In this document: positions 791-44,339 of the stretch, piece by piece | Layout: each line of letters opens with the position of its first letter | Numbering within the stretch: position 1 is the first letter of the stretch | Source of the DNA: Eunapius fragilis | Taxonomy: Eukaryota > Porifera > Demospongiae > Spongillida > Spongillidae | Direction of reading: 5' to 3' | Length of the DNA stretch: 64,000 nucleotides | NCBI GenBank assembly: GCA_963681505.1 | Contig: OY811990.1 | Coordinates: forward strand, 740,679 to 804,678 | Position numbers and translations under genes: made by a program | The notes under the pieces: generated by a model | The model's input: only the letters and a program-made list of their open reading frames with translations | Database searches by the model: none | Told to the model about the DNA's origin: nothing

Positions 791-1080
791 ACAAGTAACT
801 AAAACCTATCTCTATGAGAAAGTTGGTGAGATATAGGATTTGAAAGCAATGGTGGTATAAAAAGTAGGAAACAAGGGTCTGTAATAGTAAGGGAAAAAGT
901 CATAGTCCTATATTTAGCCCGTTTGTAGCATATACTATGTTCATGTGCTTATTATAGGACTATGACATTTCCCTTTCTATTACAGACCCTTGTTCCATTG
1001 ATTTTTTACACCACAATTGCCTTCAAATCCTACATGTAAAGCTTACCAACTTTCTAATAGAGAATGTTTTAGTTACATGC
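791..1080. mobile_element. Foldback hairpin element, family H, copy 1 (oldest)
   Basis: A long inverted repeat starting ACAAGTAACTAAAACC and ending in its degenerate complement near 1080. The outer arms carry family marks (GAGAAAGTTGGTG, GGTGGTATAAAAAG, CTATATTTAGC at the apex). Arms mismatch at several positions, more than in the other copies, so this copy looks old. No coding sequence. It lies in the large intron of the kinase-like gene. Confidence 0.75.
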
Positions 1081-1467
1081 TTCATAGTTAATGAATATCG
1101 TTATTGGCTATCATATTGGGTTTAGAAGGTCGGTCACTAGGAAGGTCAGAAACAGCTCAGGTTGCATTGACTTGTCTCAACAGCCATAGGATACTAGTAA
1201 TGTCAAACAAAGGTGTTCAAGTGATTCTTAAGAAATAGCTACTCATGATCAGTTCTCTGCTTGAACCCATTCCTCAAGATCACCTCAACACCATTGGTAA
1301 ACGCTTACCACCGTCCTAAGACTGTTGTGTGAAGTTTGCACATATACAACTGCAGTTCTTGTACATGTACAAGTAAGCCAATTTTATCTGGTCAGCGTCT
1401 AATCAGTAATGATTACTAGTAATAATTTCATTGTAAAACGCACCCGCTTGAGTTGTTAATATCATTA
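1081..1467. other. Spacer, no gene seen
   Basis: AT-rich intronic sequence between the family-H hairpin and the 2.7 kb inverted-arm element. A short palindrome, CTTGTACATGTACAAG, lies at about 1358-1373. No exon-like ORF with splice sites was recognised. Confidence 0.5.
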
Positions 1468-4185
1468 CTAAAGTGGAAACCGTGATAGTTGAGTATAAAT
1501 TTTTTTTCCTACTCCTCAATGTTTGAAATCAGTTTTATCAATAACGACTTGAGCTATAAAAATTCTATAAATGGAGTTTCGTTGGCAAACTAGTTTTCCA
1601 AAAGAGTTTGAAATTGTAGCTTATCAAGTGACACCTTACTTTCTATTTTGGGGAATTTGTGTTCCTCTTCCTGAAAAAACATTTTTAGCTGCTTTCTCCC
1701 ATATTCGAAAACAGATCAGGCTAAACATTGCCATATAACTACCCCATATATAACTGCACTACTTGGTCGGGCCGAAAGTTGAATGTGCTAAACGGTTCGA
1801 CGACCGCGGCTGCAAATGTGTTGTTTTAGAGGGAAACGCATCTAGCTGATTGTCGCGTATTGCGTTGATTTTTGGCTACCGTACCTAAACAATGCATAGA
1901 AGACAAGTATCTGTATCTGAAACGCTAGTTTACCGAGAAGTTTCGTTTACACTGCCGCTAAAATGTTTGCCTCGAACGTTGGCCCTGAAAAGTTAGCCAT
2001 TTTCGGATGAATAACATTATAATTATTGACAGTATTGTGGTTATCGTGGTTATGATTGAGACCGAGCAAATTGAAAACGGTTCTTTGCAGAACCAAACGG
2101 AGAGTCCATTAGCACGCAGGCTGCCACGAAAAGCTGGTAGACAGGGACCACCACTTTGGGAAGGTTTGAAGCCAAGGAGCACTCCAAGAGGAAACCCTAA
2201 AGCGGCAGGTTTGCAGCGGCAATCGTTGTTTCGTGCCAGAAAGCTCGAGCTGGCGAGCAGAGCTCGAAGGACTGCTATCAGAAAGTGCAACCAAAGAACT
2301 TGCGTTAGCCGAGTACATGCAGACGTTGATGCTAGGACACTCGCATTGAGAATGTACTAGCTACACCAAGCTGAGCGAGGGGATTTCCCCAAGAAATGCA
2401 AAGAGAAGGTCAAAAAGATGCTTCTGATTTTAATGCAATCACCGTGAAAAGATGGGTTACTGTCTGGTGAGTAGTTGGAGTTACAATATGAATACATGCA
2501 TACATGTACATTTACAAGTATATAAAAACCTTCTCTAACGAGAAAGTTGGTGGGCATATAGGATTGACAATGGTGGTGTAAAAAGCACGGAAACAAGTGT
2601 GACAGAAATGTTACTGGAAAATTGAAATAGGCCTATATTTAGCCCATTTTCTCAGGCGTGCGCTGCCTAAATGTGACTGGGCTAAATATAGGCCTATTTC
2701 AATTTTCCAGTAACATTTCTGTCACACTTGTTTCCGTGCTTTTACACCACCATTGTCAATCCTATATGCCCACCAACTTTCTCGTTAGAGAAGGTTTTTA
2801 TATACTTGTTTCATAAGTTTTTTTTTCTCCGTGTCAACGAAGCTTCATAACTGTAATGTGATGAGGAACGATGTGCAATGGACAAATGTCTATACCTTAC
2901 GAACGCTTTGTGCATTGCCCCGACCACAAGTTACTATATAACTTTAATAAATACGTACTAGTATGTAAAAAATTTAGCCCACTCACGTCTCAACATATAG
3001 TGCACGGTCTGTTGTATGGGCTAATTTCAATTTTTCAGGATTATTAAATGCACAGCTCGCAGGTATTTAGTATACCCATACCGTATATGATACTTTTTCG
3101 TTGTAGCTTCTTTCTCAATTATGACCTTAAGGGGCACCGCGCCGGTAAATTCTGAAGCGTTTGGTATCATTGCCGTTCTTTAAAACCATTCCTAGCGTGA
3201 GTTATACTTGACGGAGAAGAAGAAGACGACGACGACGACGACCAACATTTTTTTTGGGAATGGGCACGAGAGGCAGGTTTTTTGTTTGTCTGGAAGCGCA
3301 TAGTTTAATGACATGAAACTAGCACGAAAACGTAGATCTTGGTGTTGTCGTTCGATAGCTGCAAAGTGATAAGCAATCCGTTTCTTCGTTGTCCCTCCCG
3401 ACGCGATTTAAAAATTTTAATGACATTCATCACTCCTCAATCAATCCTATATTGAACCTGCTGACGCAGGTTCAGATAAATGCGTATACACTTCAAACCT
3501 TCCCAAAGTGGTGGTCCCTGTCTGCCAGCTCTTCGTGGCAGCCTGCGTGCTAATGGACTCTCCGTTTGGTTCTGAAAAGAACCGTTTTCAACTTGTTCGA
3601 TCTCTATCATAACCACAATACTGTCAATAATTATAATGTTATTCATCCGAAAATGGCTAACTTTTCAGGGCCAACGTTCGAGGCAAACATTTTAGCGGCA
3701 GAGTAAACGAAACTTCTCGGTAAACTAGCGTTTCAGATACAGATACCTGTCTTCTATGCATTATTTAGGTACGGTAGCCAAAAATCAAAGCAATAAGCGA
3801 CAATCAGCCAGATGCGTCTCCCTCTAAAACAACACATTTGCAGCCGCGGTCGTCGAACCGTTTAGCGCATTCAAATTTCGGCCCGACCAAGTAGTGCAGT
3901 TATATATGGGGTAGTTATAAGGCAATGTTTAGCCTGATCTGTTTCCGAATAGGGAAGAAATCAGCTAAAAATGTTTTTTCAGGAAGAGGAACACAAATTC
4001 CCCAAAATAGAAAGTAAGGTGTCACTTGATAAGCTACAATTTCAAACTCTTTTGGAAAACTAGTTTGCCAACGAAACTGCATTATTAGAATTTTTATAGC
4101 TCAAGTCATTATTGATAAAACTGATTTCAAACATTGAGGAGTAGGAAAAAAATTTTATACTCAATTATCACGGTGTCCACTTTAG
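1468..4185. mobile_element. 2.7 kb element with ~700 bp inverted arms
   Basis: The arms 1468-2173 and 3487-4185 are reverse complements of each other along nearly their whole length, starting CTAAAGTGGA..CCGTGATA and reading in to the AAGGTTTGAAG junction. The arms differ by scattered substitutions and one 9-base in-frame gap. A short ORF starting MNNIIIIDSIVV is open on both arms (2007-2360 plus; 3437-3646 minus). The central loop, 2174-3486, holds about 340 bp of unique sequence followed by a family-H/GAC element. No transposase was recognised and no clear target duplication is visible, so the superfamily is unassigned. It could be a foldback (snap-back) DNA element. Confidence 0.7.
2514..3474 (+). 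mobile_element. Family H composite element, copy 2 (hairpin + GAC module + end stem-loop)
   Basis: The hairpin 2514-2819 has almost perfectly paired arms. It is followed by a GAC-rich module, with a (GAC)n tract at about 3214-3241 preceded by TTTAAAACCATTCC, and by a small stem-loop at 3453-3474 (9 bp stem TGAACCTGC, loop TGAC). The same order (hairpin, GAC module, end stem-loop) recurs at 33.6-34.7, 40.3-41.2 and, reversed, 43.4-44.3 kb, so this is a unit rather than chance neighbours. No protein is encoded. Confidence 0.65.
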
Positions 4186-4334
4186 CCCTATCTCTTACTG
4201 ATTTGGGTTGGTCAGGGCCCGTGGTAAGGTTTGTATACGTATAGGAAATGTTTTCAGGATGCAAGGCCCAGGCACGTTTTGAAACCTCTAGAGGTATGAA
4301 CTTAATGTAACTGAACAAGCATGTACAGCAGGAA

Positions 4335-4905
4335 TTACATGTATAGTGTCCACTCCACAGCTGTCTACAGTAGTGTCCACTCCACAGCTGTCTTTACTGT
4401 GTCCACTCCACAGCTGTGTTCAGTCACAGCTGTCTACAGTATTGTCCGCTTCACAGCTGTGTATGTAGTAGGGTCACTCCACAGCTATCTACAGTACTGT
4501 CCACTCCACAGCTGTCTACAGTACTGTCCACTCCACAGCTGTCTACAGTAGCGTCCACTCCACAGTTGTCTACAGTACTGTCCACTCCACAGCTGTCTTC
4601 AGTACTGTCCACTCCCCAGCTGTCTACGGTAGTGTCCACTCCATGGCTGTCTATAGTAGTATCCACTCTACAGCTGTCTACAGACTACAGTAGTGTCCAC
4701 TCTACAGCTGTCTACAGTAGTGTCCACTCCACAGCTATCTACAGTAGACAGTTGTCTACAGTCGTGTCTATTCCACAGTTGTCTACAGTAGTGTCCACTC
4801 CACAGCTGTCTACAGATTACAGTAGTGTCCACTCCACAGCTATCTACAGTAGCATACACTCCACAGCTGTCTATAGTAGTGTCCACTGCATGGCTGTCTA
4901 GAGTA
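4335..4905. repeat. Minisatellite, 27 bp unit
   Basis: About twenty imperfect head-to-tail copies of TGTCCACTCCACAGCTG followed by TCTACAGTAG. The 27 bp period is a multiple of three, so several frames stay open on both strands for up to ~160 codons; these are not taken as genes. Some units carry shortened or fused spacers (for example near 4740 and 4820). Confidence 0.95.
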
Positions 4906-6190: not shown

Positions 6191-6203
6191 ATTTGCAATA
6201 TTT

Positions 6204-7109: not shown

Positions 7110-7211
7110 TTTCTTATTTTATTATGATATGTCATGTTATAATTTCACTATAATTATATATATGTATAGGCTGTTGCTTCTGCAATTATCACAATAATAC
7201 ATTATTCTTAC

Positions 7212-15790: not shown

Positions 15791-15859
15791 TTTGCTTGAG
15801 ATTGCCTTCCAATCCTATATGCTATCAACGTTCTCATAGAGAATGTTTTTCTTACTTGT
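15791..15859. mobile_element. Half-hairpin relic of family H
   Basis: A single right arm of the family-H hairpin (GATTGCCTTCCAATCCTATAT, then TTCTCATAGAGAATG and ACTTGT), without the opposite arm. A solo-arm remnant. Confidence 0.6.
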
Positions 15860-16592: not shown

Positions 16593-19500
16593 TGTAGTAA
16601 CGCAGCAATAAGAGTATATATACCACAAAAGGACAGCACAATGACACACCCGCAGCCTGCTGCTGGCTCTACCAGTCTACTACTGTCCTGCGCATGCGCA
16701 CTCTAATTCATGCACACCATATGGTTCATACACTACACTACACTCCTCTCCACTTAAGTCTGTTTTCCTCTTCCATAATAGTCAGGGGGTTTCCTTTGCC
16801 TCATCGGGTAACGAGGTTGCTGAGAGTGCATTTCAGGGACTGTCACTGTCTTTGGAGTAGTTGTGGTTGACTTGCTCGAACCTGTCTTTCCATCATCCGG
16901 TTCCACCACAACTGGTACCACTGGTTCATCTGAGGCCTGCACAGCCTGATGTGATGGTAGCAGCATTGAATCAGGAGATGGTAACTTTTCTGCGACCTTT
17001 TTTTCATTACTGACGTCCTTAGCACTATTTTCTGGCAGTATGTCTTCATGAGTGACACTGTGATCATTCTCTGTGGTTGTTACTGACTCTGCTTCATGGC
17101 GATGCTTGATATGATCAACATGACGCCTCCAAAACACATGAGGTTCCACCTCAACCAAGTAAGTTAACGGACCCTTACACTCAGAAATAACTCCAGCCAC
17201 CCACGGTGGTCCCTGCAGGAAATTCTTCGCCATCACTTTCTGTCCAATTTCAAATTCCCTGCTCCTTGCATGACGATCGTGTAACTCTTTCTGTAAAGCT
17301 TGCTTGTCACATACTGTGCCTGAATAATTTGGACGGATTGCATCCAACCGGGTCCGGATATTACGTTTAAGGAATAGTTCACAAGGAGCAACTTGAGTAG
17401 TTGCATGAGGAGTACTACGGTAAGTCAACAAGAACCGGCACAATTTCTGACTCAATGAAGCTCCGTCGTTCCTTGCTGCTGACATTGCTTTCTTGAATGT
17501 TTGTACAAACCGTTCTGCCAATCCATTTGAAGCTGGATGATATGGTGCGACCCGAATATGCTTCACTGCATTCCCAGCCATGAACTCAGCAAATTCCTTT
17601 GATACAAACTGTGGACCGTTGTCCGAGACCAACTGGTTTGGTACACCATATGATGCAAATAACAGTCGCAGTGCCTCAATGGTCCTGGCTGCGGTTGTGG
17701 ATGATGCCATTGGTATAACCTCAGGCCATTTTGAATGCGCATCTACCACTATCAAGAACTGCTGTCCCAGGAATGGGCCTGCGAAATCAACATGAATACG
17801 TTGCCAGGGTAATGATGGCCACACCCATGGATGCAATGGAGCTGCAGGTGGAGTCAACTTGACTTCTTGACAAGGAATGCACGATTTTGCTAGATGTTCT
17901 AACTCCGTGTCCAACCCTGGCCACCACAAATAACTTCGGGCTAACGACTTCATTCGTGACGCCCCAGGGTGACCTTTGTGCAATTCCTCAAGTACTCTTC
18001 CCTGCAACTTCTTAGGCACCAACACTCGCACCCCCCACAACAAGCAACCGCTTTCAATGGTTATCTCATCTCGCCAAATCCAGTATGGCTTCAGATCATC
18101 ATTCACTTTAGTAGGCCAACCTTTCTGTGTTAACAACAGCACTTTGCCTAAAATTTGGTCACACCCTGTTGCCGCTCTCAACTGCTCAGCTGTCACAGGC
18201 AAACTTTCCAACTGTGCCACATTGAAAACTGTTGCTGCTGTCACATCCTCCTCCTCTCCTGTACTTTGCAAAGGCAACCGTGACAAGCCATCAGCATTTG
18301 CATGACAAGCCGTTGAACGGTACTCAATAGTATACTGATAGGTGGATAGCAACAATGCCCACCTTTGAAGTCGAGCAGCAGCCAGGGTAGGAATACCTGC
18401 CTTTGATCCCAAAATGGTAGTTAACGGCTTGTGATCTGTATACAGAGTAAATGGACGTCCATACAGATACTGGTGGAATTTACGAACACCGAATATTAAG
18501 GAAAGAGCTTCTTTTTCCAGTTGTGCATAATTTCTCTCGCTAGATGACAGTGTTCTGGATGCAAATGCAACCGGCCTCTCTGACCCGTCAGGACACACAT
18601 GTGAGAGTACAGCTCCGACTCCATACTCTGATGCATCACCAGCCAATTTTAGCGGCAGAGTTGGATCATAGTGAACCAGAACTCGACTAGATGCCAGGCT
18701 TTGCTTCGCTAACTGGAATGCTTCTTCACACAATTCATCCCATTCCCAAGAGACATCTTTTCTCAACAATCTATTCAGGGGATGAAGCACCGTTGACAAG
18801 TTTGGTATGAACTTGGCATAGTAATTAACCAAACCCAAGAATGATCGCATCTGATTTAGATCCTTTGGTGCAGGAGCCTCAAGAATAACCTTCAACTTTT
18901 CTGGAGTTGTATGTAATCCCTCTGCATCAACAACATGGCCAAGGTATTCCACAGACCTTGCCAAAAAAACACACTTGTTCTTCTGTATGGTCAAGCCTGC
19001 TTTCTGTAACCTGCTTAACACCTGCTCCAAAGCCTGCAGATGTTGGGCATCATCCTTTCCTGTGACTAAAATGTCATCAATATAGCAGATCACTCCTGCT
19101 ATGCCTTGCAAAATGGAGTCCATTGCCCGCTGAAACAACGCAGGGGCGGAAGCCACCCCAAAAGGAAGGCGCGTATAACTGAACAACCCAATATGTGTGT
19201 TTATGACCACCAACTCACAAGACTCTTCTTCCAAAACCAACTGCTGGTATGCTTGAGACAGATCGATTTTTGAAAACTTTTGTCCTCCTGCTAATGTGGC
19301 AAACAAGTCATTTGGCTTTGGCAGAGGATAGCAGTCCACCTCCAGATACTGGTTAATAGTCATCTTGTAGTCGCCACACAATCGAACTCTGCCATCCTTC
19401 TTTGGGACCACCACAATTGGAGCAGCCCAAGAACTGTGTGTTATCCTTCTCAATATTCCTTGCTCTTCAAGATGACGAAGTTCCTGCTCCACTGCCTCCT

Positions 19501-21004
19501 TCAGAGCAAAGGGTATAGGTCTAGGTCTGATAAACTTTGGTACTACTTCAGCCTTCAGTACCAACTTGGCCTTAATGCCTTTCATTGTACCTAGCTCAGC
19601 CTTGAAAACATCAGCATACTTGTGCATCAACGTTTTGACCATTTGGTCACTTTGTGAAGGACTGATCCAATGACACATAACAGACCAATCAAGCTTAATC
19701 TGCTGAAGCCAATCCCTTCCTATCAAACTTGGTCCATCCTCCTTCACAACTCTCAGCAACAACTCATATCTCCGACCACCATACTGTACCTGCAGCTCAG
19801 CCTCTCCCAGTACCTTCAACCGCATGTGATTATATGCTCTCAAAACAACATCTGCCTTCTGTAATTTCACTTGACCCCTAATCTGCATCCACGTGCGCTC
19901 TGATACTAACGAGACAGCTGCACCAGTGTCTACTTCCATCTCAATCGTTGTTCCATTCACTGCAATCTTGATCAAAATAGGACGAACTTGTGATGTTCCA
20001 ACAGCAAACACACTAACGTTGTCAATAGCAGATTCTTCTTCTGCAGAATCATCCACTGAGAGAGTGTTGCGCCCTTGATAAGGTTGCGATGTTGGTTTAG
20101 ACAAACCAACTGGCTTCCCACCACTTCTACATACTCTAGTAATATGCCCAGGTTTATTGCATTTGAAACATGTAGCTTGCCTAAATTGACACCTATCAGC
20201 AAGATGCTTACTGCTTCCACAACGTATACATTTTGATGACATAGTTGTATCTGTCCTAGTAGTCACCTTCTTCACTGTCAGACTAGGCTCTTTCAGTCGC
20301 TGAGCATTCATTAGAACAGCCTCCCTACTTTGTGCGATTTCTAATGCTCGCGCCAATGTTAATTCATTCTCTGTCAGTAACGCCCTTTGCGTACTTTCTT
20401 CGCGTAATCCGCACACCAGCCTATCCCTAAGCGCTTCTTCTAGATAACCGCCAAAACGACAATGTGTAGCAAGCTTCCTTAATTCAGCAACATACTCAGC
20501 CACACTTTCATCCACACCCTGGCCCCTACGATGAAAGTGAAAACGCTCCGCTATAACAACTGGCTTGGGCTCAAAATGTCTTCTTAATGTACTCATCAAT
20601 TCGTCAAGCGATTTATCCTTTGGCTGCTGCGGCAGCAACAAGTCACGCAACAGCGCGTAATTTTTACCCCCAATCAAGGAGAGGAACACCGCTACCTGAC
20701 GCTCCGATTCAATCTTGTTTGCAACAAAATATAACCCCACCCGCTCCAAGTATGAGGAAATACCTTCGACGTTGGGGTCAAATTCCTGTATGTGACCGAA
20801 AGCCATGTGCGCCATTCTTGAGGAACCCGTCGAAAAGCCACCCTCGTCGCCAAATGTAGTAACGCAGCAATAAGAGTATATATACCACAAAAGGACAGCA
20901 CAATGACACACCCGCAGCCTGCTGCTGGCTCTACCAGTCTACTACTGTCCTGCGCATGCGCACTCTAATTCATGCACACCATATGGTTCATACACTACAC
21001 TACA
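16593..21004 (-). mobile_element. Ty3/Gypsy LTR retrotransposon, apparently whole and young
   Basis: Two 150 bp LTRs (16593-16742 and 20855-21004) that I read as identical, starting TGTAG and ending CTACA in plus-strand orientation, with the 5 bp target duplication CAAAC on both sides (16588-16592 and 21005-21009). The element is transcribed on the minus strand, so the LTR at 20855 is the 5' one. A TATATATA box lies in the LTR; a purine-rich tract (GTGGAGAGGAG) abuts the 3' LTR. LTR identity points to a recent insertion. The single long coding region between the LTRs looks whole. Confidence 0.95.
16754..20911 (-). CDS. Gag-Pol polyprotein of the Ty3/Gypsy element
   Basis: One open frame of 1385 codons; the likely start is the Met at 20815 (MAHMAFGHIQEF), because the first 32 codons run back into the LTR. 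Order of parts: Gag (capsid-like, ~residues 35-210), two Cys-His zinc knuckles (CIRCGSS..., CFKCNKPGHI..., ~235-270), aspartic protease (VDTGAAVSLVS, ~330), reverse transcriptase (LPFGVASAPALFQ and YIDDILVTG, ~500-660), RNase H (~720-840), integrase with an N-terminal zinc-binding region and a core containing SDNGPQFVS and HPASNGLAER (~960-1190). Pol order RT-RNaseH-IN defines Ty3/Gypsy. No envelope gene. The double zinc knuckle and single-frame layout would fit a Mag-like lineage, which is inference. Confidence 0.95.
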   Translation of the reverse strand: MCHCAVLLWYIYSYCCVTTFGDEGGFSTGSSRMAHMAFGHIQEFDPNVEGISSYLERVGLYFVANKIESERQVAVFLSLIGGKNYALLRDLLLPQQPKDKSLDELMSTLRRHFEPKPVVIAERFHFHRRGQGVDESVAEYVAELRKLATHCRFGGYLEEALRDRLVCGLREESTQRALLTENELTLARALEIAQSREAVLMNAQRLKEPSLTVKKVTTRTDTTMSSKCIRCGSSKHLADRCQFRQATCFKCNKPGHITRVCRSGGKPVGLSKPTSQPYQGRNTLSVDDSAEEESAIDNVSVFAVGTSQVRPILIKIAVNGTTIEMEVDTGAAVSLVSERTWMQIRGQVKLQKADVVLRAYNHMRLKVLGEAELQVQYGGRRYELLLRVVKEDGPSLIGRDWLQQIKLDWSVMCHWISPSQSDQMVKTLMHKYADVFKAELGTMKGIKAKLVLKAEVVPKFIRPRPIPFALKEAVEQELRHLEEQGILRRITHSSWAAPIVVVPKKDGRVRLCGDYKMTINQYLEVDCYPLPKPNDLFATLAGGQKFSKIDLSQAYQQLVLEEESCELVVINTHIGLFSYTRLPFGVASAPALFQRAMDSILQGIAGVICYIDDILVTGKDDAQHLQALEQVLSRLQKAGLTIQKNKCVFLARSVEYLGHVVDAEGLHTTPEKLKVILEAPAPKDLNQMRSFLGLVNYYAKFIPNLSTVLHPLNRLLRKDVSWEWDELCEEAFQLAKQSLASSRVLVHYDPTLPLKLAGDASEYGVGAVLSHVCPDGSERPVAFASRTLSSSERNYAQLEKEALSLIFGVRKFHQYLYGRPFTLYTDHKPLTTILGSKAGIPTLAAARLQRWALLLSTYQYTIEYRSTACHANADGLSRLPLQSTGEEEDVTAATVFNVAQLESLPVTAEQLRAATGCDQILGKVLLLTQKGWPTKVNDDLKPYWIWRDEITIESGCLLWGVRVLVPKKLQGRVLEELHKGHPGASRMKSLARSYLWWPGLDTELEHLAKSCIPCQEVKLTPPAAPLHPWVWPSLPWQRIHVDFAGPFLGQQFLIVVDAHSKWPEVIPMASSTTAARTIEALRLLFASYGVPNQLVSDNGPQFVSKEFAEFMAGNAVKHIRVAPYHPASNGLAERFVQTFKKAMSAARNDGASLSQKLCRFLLTYRSTPHATTQVAPCELFLKRNIRTRLDAIRPNYSGTVCDKQALQKELHDRHARSREFEIGQKVMAKNFLQGPPWVAGVISECKGPLTYLVEVEPHVFWRRHVDHIKHRHEAESVTTTENDHSVTHEDILPENSAKDVSNEKKVAEKLPSPDSMLLPSHQAVQASDEPVVPVVVEPDDGKTGSSKSTTTTPKTVTVPEMHSQQPRYPMRQRKPPDYYGRGKQT

Positions 21005-23355: not shown

Positions 23356-24875
23356 CTAGTCATTAGATACTGACTTTCTGCGTTTCCTTGATGGAACCCC
23401 ATTATTAATATGCTCTTCCCAGCATTTGCGACCACTAGAATGCCGACAAAATGTACCAGCGTCAACACCACAATAAGTACAGTACATATCAGACAAGCTC
23501 GTCTCTCTTTTATCATGACCAAAAAATGCTGGTATGTGCTCAGTAGATTGAGATAATGTCCTATTTTCTGGTAGCACAACAGTCAATGGATTCATTAGAA
23601 GTGCTTTGACAAGCATTTGACGCATATCTACATGGGTAGTTTTACTATGTGCCTGTGGAAAGAAGTATGTCATGCTTCTATATATATTTGCATCTATAAG
23701 TGACATCATTCCAGAAAATAGAGCAAGATAAGGACGTTCTTGAACTTTTAAGTGATGTTCCCAGCCATTCTTACCACCACCTACTTTACAATGATTAAAA
23801 GCATCAACTGCTCCATATGAATCATACCATAATTCTACAATATTAGGTCTTGGTATTTCTTTCCCACATGGTCTAATATAAGGTGTCCCTGCAGGGGCAC
23901 TAGAGCTTGCAGTTGAAAGAAGAGTTAACTTATGGTGAGCGCTTGACCTCCACTGAACAGCATGAAGAAGTACATTATCATCAAGGATATTGACATGTGC
24001 AGAAGCTATTGCACCAGCCTCATTCATGCACCTAGCCTCGAGATCTTCTCGGGGGTAGTTTTTGTGGGCAGTCTTCACAACACCAAGGCTGTCTAACCCT
24101 CGTCTCTTCAATTCAGTTGCAGTTTTTACAGATTGAAACCACGAATCGATGAACACAAGGCGATGACTTTCAAAGTACGGTTCCAATAAACGAAGAGTAG
24201 TAGCAGTTGTAGCCCCAAACTCTGCAAAGTATTTCAGCTGTCGAGTAATATCTTTTCCCTCATTTAATTCAAAATTAGTACAAATATCACTTTCCTTATC
24301 TACAACAGTCCATAACTCGTGTCCCCAAGGTTCAGGCTTTCGCCTAATATATATAACACAATCAGCTGCTTTAAAATTCTTGTTTCTGATCATTGATTCA
24401 TCCAAAATAATGTTGCGACCAGGTATCAAGGCACACTGAAAACATGTTTTGGCTTTCGCCTAATATATATAACACAATCAGCTGCTTTAAAATTCTTGTT
24501 TCTGATCATTGATTCATCCAAAATAATGTTGCGACCAGGTATCAAGGCACACTGAAAACATGTTTTAACAGCCAATAACCATTCACGCCACTGACCTTTC
24601 GGTATCTTACGCACAAAATGCCTCTGCCATATCTCATAGCTGTCAGTTAGTACATGAATATGTTTCTTGCCGACTTCCATTTCTGTGCTGTCATAAGGAA
24701 AATAGACAACAAAATCAGTGGAATTAATCATTTCTTTGACTTTTCCTAACAGCATAGTGTTCCCCCCACGAGCTCCAAAGTTTCTCTCACTCCCTTTTTC
24801 CACCTCTCTGTCGCTGTCAAAAATTTTGGCATAAACCCATACAGAATGACCAACTCTAATGTCTTGCTTCGACAT
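23356..24875 (-). pseudogene. piggyBac transposase, broken by a 116 bp tandem duplication
   Basis: Cut-and-paste transposase of the DDE_Tnp_1_7 (piggyBac) fold. The N-terminal part (24426-24875) reads from MSKQDIRVGHSVW to the first catalytic Asp in ILDESMI. The second frame (23356-24429, 357 codons) repeats ILDESMI (D10), then has VFIDSWFQS (D95) and GAVDAFNH (D209), the expected DDD set, and a C-terminal Cys/His-rich tail (CTYCGVDAGTFC..H..GRKCWEEH). Bases 24335-24450 and 24451-24566 are an exact tandem duplication; 116 is not a multiple of three, so the frame is lost. With one copy the gene would be ~470 codons, slightly short for the family (~550-600). Confidence 0.92.
24335..24566. repeat. 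Perfect 116 bp tandem duplication
   Basis: Two adjacent identical copies (24335-24450, 24451-24566), both starting GGCTTTCGCC and ending ACATGTTTT. No difference was found between them, so the event is very recent or maintained, or is an assembly artefact. Confidence 0.95.
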
Positions 24876-32204: not shown

Positions 32205-32486
32205 ACAAGTAATAAAAAAATTCTCTATACGAGGTTTGTGGTAAATAAGAATCAAAGGTGAAGGTGGTGTAAAAAGCAAGGGAACAAGGCTACTGATTGA
32301 AAAGGAAAAATGAAATAGACCTATTATTAACAGCATGTTGTCGTATTTAAATGTGCGTGCTAATCATTTTTCCTTTTCAATTCAGAAGCCTTGTTCCCTT
32401 GCTTCTTACACCACGATCACCTTTGATTCCTACATACATGTACCTCCAACCTTCTCGTACAGAGAATGTTTTTATCACTTTTTTCC
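32205..32486. mobile_element. Family H hairpin, copy 3
   Basis: Starts ACAAGTAATAAAAAAATTC; arms with GGTGGTGTAAAAAGCAAGG and its complement; middle arm GATTGAAAAGGAAAAATGA pairs with its complement near 32364-32384. Moderately decayed at the outer ends. Confidence 0.7.
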
Positions 32487-33582
32487 TAAGTTTTTTTGGT
32501 GGATTTGGTATTCTATTTAGTTCTTGACCATGTGTATAGACCCAGGTAGCAAAAACGTTACTTGTGCGATCATGATTGATTTATTTTAGAGGTGTACCAT
32601 TATACTAGTCCCCAGATAACTCCATTGAGGACCAAAGGGTAATAAAGGTTAAAAGCACTGGCAGAAGCGAAGCCATATGATAAATGTCCCTAAGTAAACT
32701 GATCTCACGCCATGCGCCGCAATACATTACCAAATTGACGTAAGCAAGTTTGGCGTTATACACTGTGCAAATGATTTGTTATACGATAGTGCATTATATT
32801 ATACGCACCCGTATATATGGTTCTATAATCAGGTGCGTATATTTTCAAATATACGCGATCACGTGACATTCATCTCGCTTAGCAAGCCTTTGAATTCACT
32901 TTGTGGCTATCCTGTCGGTCATAAGCGCTTCATATTCCGTGTACTCCCACCCCACGTTCCTGATCCAAATTAGAATTCAATTGAAATTTGCACAAGTACA
33001 ACGGAACTACAAACTAACAGCCCGAGGTGGCATTCAGCATAACTTCGTTCCAAGTCGCCTGTACAGAACAACTGTGAATTCTTATCGTCAAAATTATTTA
33101 ACTCACCGCATAAAGATCCTTGCGAACTGTCGTGTTGATACAACAGAGACATTGAAACGAAGACGAAATTGGCGGCAACGCTTACTTTTCTAGTCACGTT
33201 TGATCTAGCAAATTGTGAACAGCTGGGAAAGGTCAAGGAGATTAAACGCTTACTGGACCTGTCAGCAACAATCACGATGAAACTGTCTGATATTACCCGA
33301 CTTGTCAAAGTGTCCGGATTCGTCCAACACGTAGCCAGTTACAACAACTTTAGATAAATGGACGAGTGTAGCAGCACTTCGCAAAACAAAAAATGACATA
33401 CCTTTTTCTACCTGCTTCGTTTACCAGTTTCAATTGCTCAACGGGAACACTTCGGACATTCCAAACTGGTGCAAATAGTGAGAAGTGATTAGCAACACTA
33501 TTTTTCTCGTTAACTTAGACTTACCCTTCAAAAAATACGCTGATATAAAGGGTCCATTTTCAGAGACTTCACATTAAAATCA
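32487..33582. other. Spacer with a CACTG terminus and possible coding scraps
   Basis: CACTGTGCAAATGATTTG starts at 32761 and is followed by TATACG-type motifs to ~32868, the same family as the terminus at 22599. From 33196 to 33354 the plus frame FDLANCEQLGKVKEIKRLLD is open up to a stop, with no recognised domain and no clear splice sites. No supported gene. Confidence 0.4.
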
Positions 33583-34721
33583 ACAAGTAAATAAAAAACA
33601 TTCTCTATGAGAAAGTTGGTGGCATATAGGATTTGAAGGCAATGGTGGTGTAAAAAGGAAGGAAACAAGGGTCTAATAATAAGGGAAAATGGAATAGTCC
33701 TATATTTAGCACACGAACAACATACTATATCCTACATATAGAAATGTGCTAAATATAGGACTATTCCATTTTCCCTTATTATTAGACCCTTGTTTCCTTC
33801 CTTTTTACACCACCATTGCCTTCAAATCCTATATGCCACCAACTTTCTCATAGAGAATGTTTTTTATTTACTTGTTTCATTGATTTTTATTCATACCCGA
33901 TTATGAGCCGTATAGCATGTTAAGTAATCCATCGTGATATGAGAGGGAGGTTGTAAAGGTACGACATACCTTCGAGTGACCTTAACTCTTTTCGCCGAGC
34001 GAGATGCACGTTCAGGACTATGGCAATATCGCTGTCTTTTTTCAGGATCTGTACCTTGCACGTGAAGGCATTTTGAAAAAAAAAAAACTACTTCACTAAG
34101 TTACAAAGAGCGTCAAACTTACAACGATCGAATAACAAGTATGATTCTAATAGTACGCACGTGCACGTTATTATAACCGCCAGTTAATTACCACTACGTG
34201 TAGTGCCCAGACCATACACATTTGATTACAAGATGTATACTGCTAGTACTTCGTATAGTGGTATAAAGAGCGAAGTAGGACCTATCCGAGTCTTGTCAGT
34301 GCAGTAAGCTTAACTATACGTGATTTGCTAACACAACCACCGATATATGTCATGTAGCCTCGAGACGTTTTGACCACAGAAGCGATAATGCCAACGAATT
34401 CTGAAGCCATTGGTGCAATTTTCATTTCTTAAAAGTGTTCCTATCCCGAGTTATGCGTGGTCAAGAACAAGAACAAGAACAAGAACAAGAAGAAGAAATA
34501 CGTGAGACTGGGTACGAGTTTCAATAATTGTTTTGTTCTCTATAACCACGCGGTTTTGTGACATCAAACAAACACGAAACTGCTTGTTGCCTTCTTGTAC
34601 GACGACGATAACAAGGTAAGCCATCCGCTCGTCGGGAGTCTTGTTAGAAGCGGGTCGCGTTTTTTTAATGACATTCATAATCGGGGTCAAATCCTATATG
34701 AGAGTTACTAACGTAACTCTC
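33583..34721 (+). mobile_element. Family H composite element, copy 4
   Basis: Near-perfect hairpin 33583-33875; downstream module with GTTCCTATCCCGAGTTATGC and an (AAGAAC)n tract at ~34468-34493 in place of (GAC)n; GGGTCGCGTTTTTTTAATG; end stem-loop 34700-34721 (stem GAGAGTTAC, loop TAAC). Same order as copy 2. Non-coding. Confidence 0.65.
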
Positions 34722-35788
34722 GGGCAATGAAATAGCCCGCCTAAAATTTACAAGTCACGAGCGGAAAGCAAACCACATTCCTAATTGGAGAAGCTCTTCA
34801 CAGCAAAATTGTTACAATCTGTACCAGGATGATATATGTATATCAATATGTATCAGATACGTTAGTCAATGTGTATCATATATGTAGGTAGGGACAATCT
34901 GATACAGATTTATCTGACAATCTGACACAGTAAAACTACATTATGATTCATATATTTAACAATACGTGGCAGAATGATTTACATACTTGTATCACATGCT
35001 GCACCAGTTATTCTTATGTCGCATAAAATTATATCCGGTACACCTCATATATAGAAATGCAGCATAATATATGGATGAAATCAAACTCGAAGCTACGTTC
35101 GTGGCGATGATATATAATGAAGTCACGACAGCTACTGAGGTATAAGTTAAGACTTTTGAACAGTTCCCGTTTATGGTGGTGAGGTGAATACTACGTAGCA
35201 ATCATTGATACAGGGGCGGATACACGATTCCTGGAAGAGGGGGGGGGGGTCCAATATGAATTATTAATGAGGGGTGGAACCTACCGTCTCGCAGCTAGGG
35301 GGTATGGAGGAGCGCTGGAAGCTCCTCCATGGGGGTCTGGGGCTCCGCCCCAGATGCTATGCGTTATTCGCGTTTTACGCGCATGGCAATAAGCCACTGG
35401 GTAAGAGGGGAAAATGAAATGCATTAATTTGAAAAGGATAAGATTATAATACCGCTTGAGCATGGCAAGAGAAATGTTATTTGCACCTCTAAATCTACTC
35501 AAAATGAAATCATTAAATACTAGCTAGCTACATTAGCAAGAGAACAATAATATTTTTAAAATGTGTGCACAATTGCTCAGTATAAAATTACCTTTAATGA
35601 TTGCTACACTAGTATACATGTAGTTATCTCTGTGGCCTCGCAGGGGTGATCTGTTTACCTCAGAGAATTATTGCTTTTGTTATTACTTCAAAATATGGAA
35701 ATTTCTATCATATGTTTCTTTTGGCGTTAAATCTTATGTGGTAGAGCGGTTGTTTCAGGATTATCTACAGTTTCATGAAAGGCCAACG
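34722..35788. other. Spacer with a CAGTGGCG-family relic
   Basis: TACAGGGGCGGATACACGA at ~35209 and a GGGGCTCCGCCCCAG snapback at ~35339-35353 are remnants of the G/C-rich non-autonomous family nested at 11.3-13.0 kb. TATCAGATAC-type low-complexity repeats occupy 34825-34930. No gene seen. Confidence 0.45.
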
Positions 35789-37926
35789 CGGGAAAAAATT
35801 TCGGTGGTATCGCGCGCGTAATGAAGTGACATTTGTGCGCGAGAGGTACGCGCAATCACGCGTGTATGTGTGCTGCATTGCGCACAATGGACGCGCAATT
35901 TGATCGGTTAATGGCCGTTTTTCACGCCAGCGTGAGGAGTAGCGCGCGAAGAATCACTTCATATCGCGTTATATCTCGTTGGCGCTTGCTAGCTCGCAAT
36001 TCATATGTATCAAACTGAATATTCATATATATCAAACTGAAGAGTCTAATTGATCAATAAACAAGTTACAATGAATACACATGGCAATCTTTTCACAAAG
36101 GTCAACTATTAGCAATACACAGGTCACTTCCCAGGTAATCCTCCATTATCGCCATCAAGTTTGACACGCGGTTAGAGCAGCTGGTATCGATGTCGATGCA
36201 TGCAGCCATCTTAGATCTGGGAACTGAAGTGCATTCATTCTCTCTTCATCAGGATTTCCAGTGCGATATTTGTACTTGAGGTGTACTTTATAGGAGACAC
36301 GCTGTGTGCGCGCTTGTGATAAGCAGTGGGCAACTCGTTTTAAAAATTACGCACTTAACAATTTTTACCTTTCGGTCTTCTTTGATGCAATGGGCGTGCA
36401 GTTCCATATAACGGCAGTGTTCTAGATGACTATGTATCACGGTGATTGCCCTTACATTTTCATTTTCAATCACATTTTCTAAGCATAGCTTACATTTATC
36501 CGTGCCGCTGCTGTTTTCCCCTCTCCGCTATCTCATCTTTACCAAGCGCACTCTTCATATCTTACTCCGTTCCTGACGAATGGTATTTAGGTGTTAATGA
36601 GGACACGAATGAGTGAGTACGTACCATGTGCAGTTATTAATCCTTTTTGTCACTAGGCCAAACCACTTCGCCAACAGAGCTATGTACCGGTATCGTCTTC
36701 AAGTGGAGCAATTTGATAGGAATCACACTATTGGTGTTGTCACCATCGACAGACACCAAGGCATGAGTAGGAACTAGAAAAAAAGCTAAAATATAAGTTC
36801 AGGCTCTCCGATGGAGTAATATACTTACCGTGCCAACACGCACGTTCTTTTCATCGCATATTTATTTTGTAGAACACGTGAATCGCCAGTCATGTGACAT
36901 TGTGTTGTTCCGTTCTTCTTTTTAAGTGACCATAAATAGCATGCCCATAGAAATAAAGGCTGGCTCATCGTACATCGGAAACTTTGAACACTGCGAAGCC
37001 TCTTCAACGTTAACGTTTCATAAGACAAAACCATGCCCGTCTGTTGTCTGTTGTAAATGATTTAGAACAGATATATTAATTGTTACACGTTAAAACTTTT
37101 TTAAGAGACGACCCTTTAAGCACTACTGGAAAATTTGTGCAAGCCAGACAGGGTTTTATTATCATAGCGTGAATGATCGATCAATTGCGAGACCGCGAGA
37201 TCAATTCGTAATGACGCGCAATTGATCTCGCGGTCTCGCAATTGATCGATCATTCACGCTATGATAATAAAACCCTGTCTGACTTGCACAAATTTTCCAG
37301 TAGTGCTTAAAGGGTCGTCTCTTAAAAAAGTTTTAACGTGTAACAATTAATATATCTGTTCTAAATCATTTACAACAGACAACAGACGGGCATGGTTTTG
37401 TCTTATGAAACGTTAACGTTGAAGAGGCTTCGCAGTGTTCAAAGTTTCCGATGTACGATGAGCCAGCCTTTATTTCTATGGGCATGCTATTTATGGTCAC
37501 TTAAAAAGAAGAACGGAACAACACAATGTCACATGACTGGCGATTCACGTGTTCTACAAAATAAATATGGGAAGTGACCTTCTGTGTATTGCTAATAGTT
37601 GACCTTTGTGAAAAGATTGCCATGTGTATTCATTGTAACTTGTTTATTGATCACTTTATTGATCAATTAGACTCTTCAGTTTGATATATATGAATATTCA
37701 GTTTGATATATATGAATGCGAGCTAGCACGCGCCAACGAGATATAACGCGATATGAAGTGATTCTTCGCGCGCTACTCCTCACGCTGGCGTGAAAAACGG
37801 CCATTAACCGATCAAATTGCGCGTCCATTGCGCACAATGCAGCACACATACACGCGTGATTGCGCGTACCTCTCGCGCACAAATGTCACTTCATTACGCG
37901 CGCGATACCGCCGAAATTTTTCCCCG
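35789..37926. mobile_element. 2.1 kb giant palindromic element with one asymmetric segment
   Basis: The sequence from CGGGAAAAAATTTCGG (35789) to its complement (ending 37926) folds on a centre near 37205. The inner 36852-37565 and the outer 35789-36140 / 37566-37926 are paired with few mismatches. Only the left arm carries an extra ~710 bp (36141-36851). Small ORFs repeated on both arms (starting MCARGTRNHACMCAALR and MVLSYETLTLKRLRSV) are mirror images, not separate genes. No target duplication was identified. Confidence 0.85.
36141..36851 (-). other. Unpaired 710 bp segment with exon-like pieces
   Basis: Minus-strand segment at 36369-36513 reads SGTDKCKLCLENVIENENVR, then HSHLEHCRYMELHAHC, ending at a gtaaaa donor: a CxxC..H..HC..HxHC pattern like a zinc-binding fold. 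A second minus-strand stretch (~36645-36778) reads PTHALVSVDGDNTNSVIPIK, then VGEVVWPSDKKD and a stop, after a tttctag acceptor. These look like host exons, either captured by the element or left when the right arm lost its copy. Phases of the two do not obviously join. Confidence 0.4.
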
Positions 37927-38640: not shown

Positions 38641-38734
38641 TTCACAAGCGCTTGAGTTGTATTCCTGACCTCAAGGTTGTGTAAGAAAACTTATAAGGTA
38701 CATGGAGGCCAAATACAATACACGATCGAAGCTC

Positions 38735-38935: not shown

Positions 38936-39099
38936 ATGAGTGCGTTCAAGTAATGATATGCTTATCTTAAGATTAAACATTTAATTTTAGGTCTTTTTGC
39001 AAAAAAATCTGAAATGTGTCGCTGGTTTCCCGCTCACTTCGTTGCATTCGCTACTATCCCACGTGCGCGCTAATTTTCGTTAATTATATTCATACTCCA

Positions 39100-40302: not shown

Positions 40303-40640
40303 ACAAGTAAAGAAAAACATTCTCTAACGAGAAAGTTGGTGGGATATAGGAATTGGAGGCAAAGGTGATGTAAAAAGGAGGAGAACAAGGTTTTGAGAAA
40401 AGGGTAAATGAGACAAAAATCCTATATTTAGCACTTCTTTTGGTTCTGTTACATTTACACGTGCTAAATATAGGATTTTTGTCTCATTTACCCTTTTCTC
40501 AAAACCTTGTTCTCCTCCTTTTTACACCACCTTTGCCTCCAATTCCTATATCCCACCAACTTTCTCGTTAGAGAATGTTTTTCTTTACTTGTTTCCTCTA
40601 TTTTTAATTATCATTTTTTATCGATTATTGATACTGACAA

Positions 40641-40677
<37 letters not shown>

Positions 40678-40983
40678 CTTCAATTGCCGTCACGAGCAGA
40701 CGCCCGCTTTTGTTTGGGATCACTGTAAGGAACGCGGGAGAATTCAAACACGTCGTCTGCTCTCCTCTTTTGTTTGCACAATTCTAAATATACGTAAATG
40801 TCGCCATGGGAACGCTTCTATTTAACACTACGCATTACGTAATGATAACGTATGTCAGTTTTATGCTTCATTCATACATCGGATACTTGAAGATGGCCTT
40901 CCAGGAGATTCTAAAGCGATTGGTATAATTGGCGCTCTTTAAAACCATTCCTATCAGGAGTTATACTCACCCGAGAATTAGAA

Positions 40984-41024
<41 letters not shown>

Positions 41025-41246
41025 AGAAGATTTGGCCTGGGGACGAGGAAAAACACGAACTTTTTTGTTCTCTTAAAGCAAACAGTTTGAAGACTGGAAC
41101 AAAACATTAAAATGGCCGTCTTTGCCTTCTGGTTCGATAGGAACAAAGAGCTAAACTATCCGTTTCTTGGTACGCGAGTTATACGCGGGTCGCGTATATT
41201 CACGACCCGGGTCAATTCCTATATAGGAACTACTATCGTAGTTCCT
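40303..41246 (+). mobile_element. Family H composite element, copy 5
   Basis: Hairpin 40303-40592 (arms near perfect; middle arm GTTTTGAGAAAAGGGTAAAT and its complement), poly-C run 40645-40676, GAC module with (GAC)n 40985-41023, CGGGTCGCG, end stem-loop 41225-41246 (stem AGGAACTAC, loop TATC). Very similar (by eye well over 90%) to the reversed copy at 43438-44339. Confidence 0.8.
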
Positions 41247-41689
41247 GATACGCGTGCGTATACGCGAAGTATCCCACTGGTATATTTTGCGTATAGAACC
41301 AATTTCGCACTGCGTATATTTCGAGTATCCTCAAATGTATCACGTGCGCTTATGGAGGATTCTCTAATTAATGTCTCCGGATACTACACTGTACCTACGT
41401 TGACCGTATACTGTATTGGGTGCGCCACCCGATTATGTTCGTTGTATACTGGCTTGATTAGTATTAAAATTATTATCAATATTATATAAAGCAATATAAT
41501 CAATAGACAACGTTCAAGTTCTCCCGCCATCAAGGAAGGAGATACTCCAGTAGTGGCCCTCCAACCCGCCGTTGCCACGAGTTGCTCAGAAATCCATTGC
41601 AACCTCTTCTAACGAAACGCGCGGCAGTAGTTGAGCGTAGGCTTCAAACTGCTTCCCTGTACTGTCACCATAGTCCATATAGCTACAGC

Positions 41690-42360
41690 AAAATAGAGCA
41701 TCCATACGATGCAAATGCAAACAGAGGCCTACACTGACGGCGGGATTGCTTGACAAGCTCAGCTGAATCTGGGCTTTCCTTGTCTAGCTGCAGGGAATAT
41801 ACAGGGTTAAAACAAACGAAGCCTTTACCGTATACTCCAAAGCAATCCGCTACTTCTCTATCTCCGCTCTTGGTATAATTTGTATTCAATTCAACAGACA
41901 CTGATAAACAGCAAGTGTGAATGAAAACGCAATGCTCTGCCTTTGCTAGTTTTTATGACGTCTCTAAATTTGACTCGAGAAAAAAAAGGTGATGATTACT
42001 TACCACCGGTTGAGGTACTATCCACGTGTTACGGGAAATCATAATGGTGAGAGAATGAGATACCTGATTGCGACACAATGCAGTTACGTTCTCAAGATTC
42101 GAAACGGTCTTAGAGATTGAAGCCAACCACGCGCGCTCAGCAAATGGGTCATTGTACAATCTGTCGGATGAAGAGCCGCCAATTAGCCAATGCATTTTGC
42201 AACTAACCAACACCAACAGTTTTTCATCTCGACGAATAGAACGTCGAACGGTAATTTTTCCGCTCAAGCCACGTTGTGCTTGGCTCCTATTGAAATTACT
42301 AACTGAATTTTGTATTAATAAATGGGTGCTGCGTATAAATGGAGCATTATGGATATCCAA
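41690..42360 (-). CDS. Exon-like minus-strand sequence inside the CACTG element
   Basis: The frame 42072-42360 reads MDIHNAPFIRSTHLLIQNSV, then KMHWLIGGSSSDRLYNDPFA and LENVTALCRNQ up to a gtatct donor; 41690-41905 reads VELNTNYTKSGDREVADCFG, then YGKGFVCFNPVYSLQLDKE. Both look protein-coding in composition but match no family I know, and their phases are not clearly compatible. They could be a captured gene fragment or remnants of the element's own gene. Confidence 0.28.
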
Positions 42361-42386
42361 TAAGAGTGAATAGAAAGAGAGGGGTT

Positions 42387-42394
<8 letters not shown>

Positions 42395-42460
<66 letters not shown>

Positions 42461-42465
42461 GGAAG
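42395..42465. repeat. (GA)n microsatellite
   Basis: About 70 bp of nearly pure GA dinucleotide repeat. Confidence 0.97.
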
Positions 42466-42602
42466 AGGAAGATATGGTCACATCACAGGAAGTGACCGAA
42501 AATCTACATGTATGATGCCACACAACTGATGTCATATTCTAATTACACACACACCAATTAAGTTTGTGTACCTGAGACAGCATGAAATGCTTAAACACAT
42601 AC

Positions 42603-43300
42603 GTCCTCAAGGTCTGGTGGTGATTACGTGCAAGGGTGCAATACATTAAATGGTACAACTCACCTTTCAAGTGCCACGCCCACCAAAGTCACGTGACTCC
42701 AATGACCCCATCAAGGTTGAAAGGTCTCAAAGCATGAAAAGCTTTAGGGACATACTGTCCTCAACGTCTGGTGGTGATTACGTGCAAGTGTGCAATACAT
42801 TAAATGGTACAACTCACCTTTCAAGTGCCACGCCCACCAAAGTCACGTGACTCCAATGACCCCATCAAGGTTGAAAGGTCTCAAAGCATGAAAAGCTTTA
42901 GGGACATACTGTCCTCAACGTCTGGTGGTGATTACGTGCAAGTGTGCAATATATTAAATGGTACAACTCACCTTATCAAGTACCACGCCCACCAAAGTCA
43001 CGTGATTCCAATGACCCCATCAAGGTTGAAAGGTCTCAAAGCATGAAAAGCTTTAGGGACATACTGTCCTCAACGTCTGGTGGTGATTACGTGCAAGTGT
43101 GCAATACATTAAATGGTACAACTCACCTTTCAAGTACCACGCCCACCAAAGTCACGTGACTCCAATGACCCCATCAAGGTTGAAAGGTCTCAAAGCATGA
43201 AAAGCTTTAGGGACATACTGTCCTCAATGTCTGGTGGTGATTACGTGCCAGTGTACAATAAATTAAATTGTACAACTCACCTATAAAGTGCCAAGACCAT
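42603..43300. repeat. Tandem array, 154 bp unit, ~4.5 copies
   Basis: Units start at CCTCAACGTCTGGTGGTG, positions 42605, 42759, 42913, 43068 and 43222 (periods 154, 154, 155, 154). Copies are nearly identical except the first and last. The unit contains ACGTGCAAGTGTGCAATAC and CACGTGACTCCAATGACCCC. 154 is not a multiple of three, so the open frames in each unit differ and are not taken as genes. Confidence 0.95.
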
Positions 43301-43437
43301 AAGGTGTCACTGCTATTTCACTGCTATTTCAATGGTGATCATACTGTTGGCCTATTTGTCAGGAACCACTTCAGCTAACCTCTGCAACTCTAGGTCCTTC
43401 TCACTGGGGATCGTGACCATACTCCTGCTCCCTCATC

Positions 43438-44339
43438 AGGAACTACGATAGTAGTTCCTATATAGGAATTGACCCGGGTCGTGAAATCATTAAAAAACGC
43501 AACCAGCGTACAACTCGCGTACCGAGAAACGGATAGTTTAGCTCTTTGTTGCTATCAAACCAGAAGGCAAAGACGGTCATTTTAATGCTTTATTCCAGTC
43601 TTCAAACTGTTTGCTTTAAGAGAACAAAAAAGTTCGTGTTTTACCTCGTCCCCAGCCCAAATCTTCTCCGTCGTCGTCGTCGTCGTCGTCTTCTTCTTCT
43701 CGGGTGAGTATAACTCGGGATAGGAATGGTTTTAAAGAGCGCAAATTATACCAATCGCTTTAGAATCTCCTGGAAGGACATCTTCAGGTATCAGATATAT
43801 GAATGACTGATATGCGTAATCATTACGTAATGCCTAGTGATAGATAGAAGCGTTCCCATGGCGACATTTACGTATATTTAGAATTGTGCAAACAAAAGAG
43901 GAGAGCAGACGACGAGTTAGAATTCTCCCGCGTTCCTTACAGTGATGCCAAACAAAAGCGGGCGTCTGCTCGTGACGGTAATTAAAGCGGGGGGGTGGGG
44001 GGGGGGGGGGGCACTTGCCAGTATTAATAAATGATAATGAAAAAATAGAGGAAACAAGTAAAGAAAAACATTCTCTAACGAGAAAGTTGGTGGGATATAG
44101 GAATTGGAGGCAAAGGTGGTGTAAAAAGGAGGGGAACAAGGTTTTGAGAAAAGGGTAAATGAGACAAAAATCCTATATTTAGCACTTCTTTTCTGTTACA
44201 TTTACACGTGCTAAATATACGATTTTTGTCTCATTTACCCTTTTCTCAAAACCTTGTTCCCCTCCTTTTTACACCACCTTTGCCTCCAATTCCTATATCC
44301 CACCAACTTTCTCGTTAGAGAATGTTTTTCTTTACTTGT
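43438..44339 (-). mobile_element. Family H composite element, copy 6 (reversed)
   Basis: Mirror arrangement of copy 5: end stem-loop 43438-43459, GAC module with (GTC)n 43668-43691, poly-G run ~43988-44011, hairpin 44054-44339. Together with copy 5 it gives the enclosing element two inverted ~0.9 kb blocks around 2.2 kb of other sequence. Confidence 0.8.

Follow-up and report, generated by a model that had tools for sequence, protein, structure and literature searches.

The hairpins of a 64,000-nt stretch of the Eunapius fragilis genome (contig OY811990.1, positions 740,679–804,678, G000:C20:740679-804678 in our coordinates; hereafter the window) belong to a large set of long palindromes, and the intact ones constitute the palindromic 3′ termini (right terminal sequences) of Helitrons, both autonomous and deletion-derived. 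The two arms of these palindromes appear to have been copied from each other now and then, and the loop turned, with each family evolving its own well-paired end. Our favored reading, to which we assign a probability of roughly 0.7, is that the arms are homogenized in short patches and the loop is inverted by template switching, mainly in source copies and during mobilization. The genome searched comprises 219 Mb in 24 contigs.

The six hairpins listed in a preliminary description of the window were found again at the same positions (Table 1), although the statement made there that each copy is paired within itself holds for the four near-perfect ones (at 2514, 33583, 40303, and 44054) and not for the two that are decayed (at 791 and 32205). 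Arm complementarity is 99–100% over 132 nt in hairpins 33582–33876, 40303–40592, and 44054–44339, and 100% apart from one 1-nt indel in hairpin 2514–2809, whereas hairpins 791–1080 and 32205–32486 retain arm pieces that are only 83–88% complementary. The near-perfect palindromes are ~290 bp long; folded as DNA, the strand 2515–2808 gave −160 kcal/mol, versus −27 ± 4 in 200 shuffles (z −34). These intact hairpins represent three families instead of four, those at 40303 and 44054 both being from family D. The common motif (12 matches to GAGAAAGTTGGTG with up to two mismatches, versus 1.7 expected) and the strong difference between copies were also borne out: the 5′ arms of five family representatives differ by 6–26 substitutions, plus gaps, per 125 nt, and the number of substitutions between representatives is equal on the 3′ and the 5′ arms. 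The outer arms are similar from family to family. What had been overlooked is the attachment of the hairpins to longer elements, whose 3′ ends they form, and the occurrence of the loop in both orientations.

The association with longer elements is evident from 60 flanks of two families (30 each), in which the hairpin lies between a conserved body and host DNA that differs from copy to copy; the far end of the body, where recognized, is a small stem-loop 0.8–1.7 kb from the palindrome. On the gene strand, the layout is a host A, TC plus a 9-bp stem-loop, ATATAGGATT.., the body, the palindrome ending in ACTTG, and a host T, with the palindrome forming the extreme 3′ terminus of the element (...ACTTG|T host). 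Among 40 copies of families A and B with both ends, A precedes TC in 39 and T follows the 3′ end in all 40, the latter count being biased because this T belonged to the search query; L165, a copy chosen by its body, lacks it. In the same 40 copies, exact flank duplications of 2–10 nt occurred no more often than when the partners were shuffled (2 nt, 14 observed vs. 14.8 shuffled; 3 nt, 0 vs. 1.0; 4 nt, 1 vs. 0.9; 5–10 nt, none), i.e., there is no target-site duplication. Likewise, the flanks of L014, inserted in the apex of another palindrome, and of L057, in a TA-rich repeat, fit insertion between A and T without loss or duplication. The 5′ stem differs among the three window families and is self-paired in each of them, and ATATAGGATTGA near the 5′ end together with TCAATCCTATAT in the 3′ arm constitutes an asymmetric terminal inverted repeat. 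The conserved one-sided body and the absence of target duplication rule out a stand-alone fold-back miniature inverted-repeat transposable element. By its position, the palindrome should serve as a transfer-end signal of the Helraiser type; in the excerpts of the Helraiser study considered here (PMC4778049), the 3′ hairpin signals where transfer stops, and elements deprived of it transpose less and show more read-through. As a separate observation, L014 and L018 are Helitrons sitting in palindromes of other Helitrons, their host flanks resembling palindrome arms or apex.

Autonomous copies carry the same kind of end. The profile PF14214 (Helitron_like_N) gave 91 matches in the genome, fragments counted, and two family B hairpins lie 5.3–5.4 kb downstream of such matches. 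The autonomous element L149 (G000:C1:17969696-17979709, minus strand; 10,014 bp) begins with A|TCTGAACCTGC.., its other end being a perfect B palindrome next to a host T. Its single RepHel-type open reading frame (ORF), of 1995 codons, matches PF14214 (89.7 bits), PIF1 (PF05970; 71.5 bits), and DUF6570, all over cut-off, and OTU under cut-off; this ORF has no Pfam match to an endonuclease domain at E 0.001. Residues 400–900 of the protein are 99% identical to Em0003g78a and 97% identical to an Ephydatia muelleri protein. The short B elements have both ends of L149 and are, therefore, deletion derivatives of the autonomous element. An array of units ~45 bp apart lies behind the 5′ end of L149 (G000:C1:17978585-17979080), and is also matched by the short copies L025 and L029. 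In a second autonomous family (L152, with a Rep match at C9:6127323), the terminal palindrome measures 303 bp; its arms are identical up to the apex, and it has only 84–87 identical positions per 125-nt arm in comparison with the other families.

We file these elements as Helitrons of mixed structural type, because the CTTG end and the ~290-bp terminal palindrome match neither the canonical nor the Helitron2 description: TC, the A|T target, and Rep plus PIF1 are canonical, whereas the hairpins at both ends and the sub-terminal repeat are Helitron2-like. As in canonical Helitrons (Helitron1) and Helraiser, there is a Rep plus PIF1-type helicase, a 5′ TC, an A|T target without duplication, and a 3′ hairpin; however, instead of a 3′ CTRR with a short hairpin 10–12 nt upstream, the elements have CTTG within a palindrome that includes the terminus, compared with the 19-bp palindrome 11 nt upstream described in the Helraiser excerpts (PMC4778049). 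Features in common with Helitron2/Helentron and HINE/DINE-1 elements are the hairpins at both ends (with 5′ stem-loops in three families) and a sub-terminal repeat (ATATAGGATT..) that occurs in the 5′ end and in the 3′ arm and gives the asymmetric terminal inverted repeat; Helitron2/Helentron also has short deletion derivatives beside autonomous copies, and Fusarium FoHeli1/2 begin with TC and a 5′ hairpin. Conversely, the target is A|T here vs. TTTT|T/C or TT, and the 3′ palindromes of those elements are short, as far as the excerpted descriptions go (PMC5148889, PMC4067079). Assignment to Helentron was dropped, given the lack of an endonuclease match in the 1995-codon ORF and an A|T instead of a TT target.

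For the analysis of arm co-variation, 145 of 151 hairpins could be oriented, the other six being dropped from the arm, loop, and allele counts; L138 and nine unclustered hairpins, W32205 among them, were excluded from the scoring of alleles as shared or private. Most copies were chosen by their likeness to a window hairpin (40 scored of 1332–1940 candidates per search). Arms of 132 nt differ in a median of 1 column within a copy versus 35 between copies. Nevertheless, the idea that an arm resembles its own partner above all others failed, because copies of one family have their arms in common: among 145 copies, the partner was strictly the nearest sequence to the 5′ arm in 4, equally near as another arm in 49, and farther than another arm in 92, a figure inflated because the stretch compared extends slightly into the loop. 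Variants were scored as doubled (both-arm) or one-arm and as shared or private, with shared ones taken as a rule as older than the insertion. Counting substitutions only, and with one of each of the five segmental-duplicate pairs removed, changes were doubled in 5/5 shared vs. 0/5 private cases in family B (40 copies; Fisher p 0.008), in 5/12 vs. 3/56 in family D (36 copies; p 0.003), and in 7/25 vs. 3/75 in family C (26 copies; p 0.002), while family A (28 copies) had zero variation. Counted with indels and before removal of duplicates, family B has seven private changes, every one of them single-arm. Palindrome diversity in family A (pi 0.0006, vs. 0.025 for the bodies; 23 copies) is not taken as proof, these copies having been chosen by palindrome identity.

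The existence of discrete families A–D with common arms agrees with the idea that every middle segment defines a subfamily, founded by a single inversion and free of later arm-copying, and to this extent the subfamily explanation foreseen in the preliminary description stands. However, the doubled polymorphism within B and D and a doubled two-change allele of family A (see below) demand copying after the founding, and the outer arms are similar between families; the probability of this explanation is practically negligible. Pairing could also be kept by selection, on a structured RNA, on small RNAs, or on an efficient terminator, through ordinary compensatory mutation, in line with the near-perfect palindromes of families A, B, and D despite their differing sequence and with the importance of the 3′ hairpin for Helraiser transposition in the excerpts cited (PMC4778049). 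Against this, coincidence predicts 0.0004 doubled changes in B, 0.05 in D, and 0.13 in C, when 5, 8, and 10 were seen (shared plus private). The five in B are A>T, C>A, C>T, T>G, and G>T, so a G-T intermediate is of no help because four of them are transversions; a 1-nt deletion is also among the doubled changes. Additionally, a mismatched D end, with 120C>G in a single arm, has multiplied to five copies, and the window lacks any Rfam match at gathering scores (a scan of the window for tRNAs was likewise empty). We thus consider selection a very improbable origin of the doubled changes, although it may still decide which ends multiply.

The 120C>G allele is informative in another respect, as it multiplied uncorrected beside a doubled allele: in L127, L128, L131, and L135, both arms have 67T>C, but 120C>G, 53 nt away, is confined to the 3′ arm. 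Therefore, copying occurs in short patches, and whole-arm snap-back synthesis at each move is ruled out. The preliminary suggestion that the arms are re-copied from each other during movement is right in that they are copied, coincidence being too rare for the doubled changes, and wrong in implying that every copy does so at each move.

Typing by exact 28- to 32-mers, which is independent of the hairpin similarity lists, gave a concordant linkage between arms. At B site 60, contigs C1–C3 were used, as the first 100 of 337 matches to the T allele are complete to C3:14283621; they contain 45 TT and 10 GG palindromes and no mixed ones, vs. 16.4 mixed expected, together with 4 G and 9 T lone arms plus one T at the end of the listed matches. 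Genome-wide, the G allele was found in 37 GG palindromes and 10 lone arms, one of which belongs to the window copy, in which a 1-nt deletion affects the opposite arm. For D site 80, contigs C1–C4 could be used on the basis of the first 100 of 247 matches, with 25 GG, 11 AA, and a single mixed palindrome, vs. 15.9 expected, and 47 G and 7 A lone arms. The two-change allele of family A, in which one change is a 1-nt deletion, occurs genome-wide in 15 doubled palindromes, including one segmental-duplicate pair (L164/L168), and in 2 lone arms; one of the latter is L162, whose partner arm has the two-change allele and a private change. This typing tests linkage and not the number of events, since the copies that have an allele in common trace back to few events. 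As a control for selection of the copies, family A elements were chosen by the body adjoining the hairpin (10 of 40 hits fetched, one of them truncated). The nine intact palindromes were 95.6–99.7% identical to L042 and five of them had doubled changes (L161, L162, L164, L168, and L169), or four after merging the duplicate pair; the changes in the loop of L165, L166, and L167 are undoubled, as their position implies.

The orientation of the loop relative to the body varies in all four families sampled, with ratios of 29:1 in A, 17:23 in B, 21:18 in D, and 9:26 in C, plus one undecided (duplicates included). The longer and the shorter D loops each occur in both orientations and, therefore, there were several inversions or exchanges. 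Additionally, L116 and L118 have 127T>G on the 5′ arm, and L121 and L126, whose loops are inverted, have it on the 3′ arm, so that inversion moved a one-arm marker to the other arm once. Inversions are rare per move: on a tree of B bodies, orientation switches once among the 18 complete copies (of 40) used. All four combinations of loop orientation and site 60 are present in family B. Separately, copies L009–L038 of this family display all four combinations of sites 8 and 60, with like palindromes on well-separated body groups, so that ends may be exchanged between elements.

Parvovirus-type ends consist of a terminal palindrome with a loop in two orientations and are served by a Rep protein, as in the elements described here. 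We thus considered rolling-hairpin replication, in which the terminal hairpin is unfolded and copied in each round and the loop turned every time, and with which the finding of CTTG|T at both hairpin borders, on opposite strands, agrees. However, orientation is stable over many moves, as seen in the B body tree, and 29 of 30 A copies have the same one, which rules out a flip at every round; moreover, hairpin transfer alone would exchange mismatches between arms, not repair them. Such replication is extremely unlikely.

According to the template-switching reading, a polymerase would switch between the paired arms when the palindrome is single-stranded or extruded. A switch within one molecule would overwrite a patch in one arm with the sequence of its partner, whereas a switch to another molecule and back would invert the loop, and a mutated end could in this way be turned into a perfect but new hairpin. 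The palindrome probably acts, judging from its position, as the Helitron 3′ hairpin that ends strand transfer. We tie the copying to the activity of source elements because changes arising after insertion are nearly always confined to a single arm, the old group C included; its occurrence mainly in source copies and during mobilization is, however, a less secure part of the scheme. A narrower version places the events in Helitron transposition itself, with the 3′ palindrome single-stranded in a rolling-circle intermediate, its arms patch-copied, and its loop occasionally inverted, such that the terminator would be repaired in transit and every lineage would gradually acquire a perfectly paired end of its own; we regard this version as possible, albeit doubtful.

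The main rival to template switching is homologous gene conversion with crossing-over between arms or copies, following breaks at cruciforms in ordinary chromosomal DNA and with no tie to Helitron replication. This would account for the doubled alleles and for the inversion that swapped a one-arm marker, and the four B combinations, whether of sites 8 and 60 or of site 60 with loop orientation, suggest recombination between copies or recurrent events. On the other hand, the patches look short, with position 67 converted and position 120 not, on arms of no more than ~130 nt, and there is little doubling in resident copies, even in group C (3/75 private changes); we consider gene conversion unlikely.

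Several observations weigh against the template-switching reading or limit its reach. The footprints are known from sequence only, and gene conversion with crossover between arms would leave the same marks. Correction is not coupled to every move, given that 7/12 shared D alleles and 18/25 shared C alleles are undoubled; one-arm changes are also present in the body-chosen copies L162, L163, and L164/L168. Because a lone arm is one whose partner fits neither exact pattern, mixed palindromes can hide among them: L109 and the segmental duplicates L129 and L130 combine an A on the 5′ arm with a G on the 3′ arm at D site 80 and carry a further change, yet they were typed as lone arms. Rates obtained from copies picked by similarity are not genome averages, and copies sharing an allele may stem from one doubled founder and not from independent events. 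The contrast between shared and private changes could partly reflect age or a filter by which mismatched ends multiply less; by the same token, post-insertion changes staying in one arm do not prove a rolling-circle step, since mismatched ends might multiply less and shared alleles be older. Finally, in eight of nine further autonomous 3′ flanks there was no long palindrome in the stretch ~4.7–6.3 kb beyond the Rep match; either the ends of these elements are elsewhere or their families have no palindrome.

The preliminary description saw in the co-varying arms a candidate for an undescribed mechanism, which is too strong, as arm homogenization with loop inversion is a published kind of mutation. 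In the excerpted text of Abraham and Hazkani-Covo (PMC8604942), template switching in yeast leads to arm homogenization and spacer inversion, with intermolecular switching for the inversion, and, in that of a PNAS paper from 2022 (PMC8794818), template switching is proposed for rRNA and microRNA hairpins, in which loop inversions are rare. Both marks occur together there, as they do here; however, those cases concern short arms in genes and RNAs, whereas the arms reported here are ~130 bp long and at the 3′ terminus of a mobile element, which is the new context. In addition, there are hundreds of matching arms in the genome and, therefore, events can be dated before or after insertion. A literature search, with preprints and most subscription journals outside its scope, retrieved no paper in which the arms of Helitron ends are copied or their loops inverted, and none on Ephydatia Helitrons.

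With their hundreds of copies, these palindromes represent a natural experiment that allows one to count how often the arms of a long palindrome are copied and its loop inverted, and to tell whether this happened before or after insertion. They offer an account of Helitron families with quite different, yet well-paired, ends, and caution that co-variation in repeats need not imply selection on RNA structure. Likewise, single-stranded Helitron intermediates become approachable from sequence; if the events were indeed driven by transposition, the palindromes would be a sequence-level record of such an intermediate, and copying would be a route for transposon families to diversify their ends without losing them.

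Table 1. Helitrons, terminal palindromes, and related sequences in the window.
Feature	Position	Strand	Remarks
Decayed palindrome relative	791..1080	Could not be set	Best genome matches 86–89%, mostly group C
3′ terminal palindrome, family B element (flanking host base included)	2514..2809	−	Arm complementarity and folding
Non-autonomous Helitron, family B	2515..3476	−	5′ TC at 3476, 3′ CTTG at 2515, A|T flanks; 98% over 977 columns to another B copy
5′ end of family B element	3453..3476	−	TC plus stem-loop TGAACCTGC-GTCA-GCAGGTTCA, then ATATAGGATTGA
Solo piece of palindrome arm	15801..15859	.	88.5% over 61 columns
Old diverged palindrome relative	32205..32486	−	Strand from weak match of adjoining tail
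3′ terminal palindrome, family A element	33583..33875	−	Identical in at least 28 genome places, including itself and two segmental-duplicate pairs
Non-autonomous Helitron, family A	33584..34723	−	First base of 5′ TC deviates in this copy; basis includes L042
3′ terminal palindrome, family D copy 1	40303..40592	−	Longer loop class; loop defined as forward
Non-autonomous Helitron, family D copy 1	40304..41248	−	5′ TC at 41248
Non-autonomous Helitron, family D copy 2	43436..44338	+	5′ TC at 43436, 3′ CTTG ends at 44338; 88% to copy 1 over 957 columns, opposite strand
3′ terminal palindrome, family D copy 2	44054..44339	+	Shorter loop class; loop inverted vs. copy 1

The window also contains a fold-back at 36854–37572, with 353-nt arms that are 99% complementary, a 13-nt loop, and ends TCGCATAT../..ATATGGGA, as well as other long inverted repeats (45894–46996, 61014–61446, and 60191–60593), the arms of the longer pieces being 82–99% complementary; that at 61014–61446 is flanked by additional inverted sequence (gggtgaaaaaataca / tgtattttttcaccc). 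On the minus strand, and named by reading alone, a 1385-aa open frame (16754–20911) resembles the polyprotein of a gypsy-type retroelement, and two open frames (23356–24875) resemble a piggyBac-type transposase.

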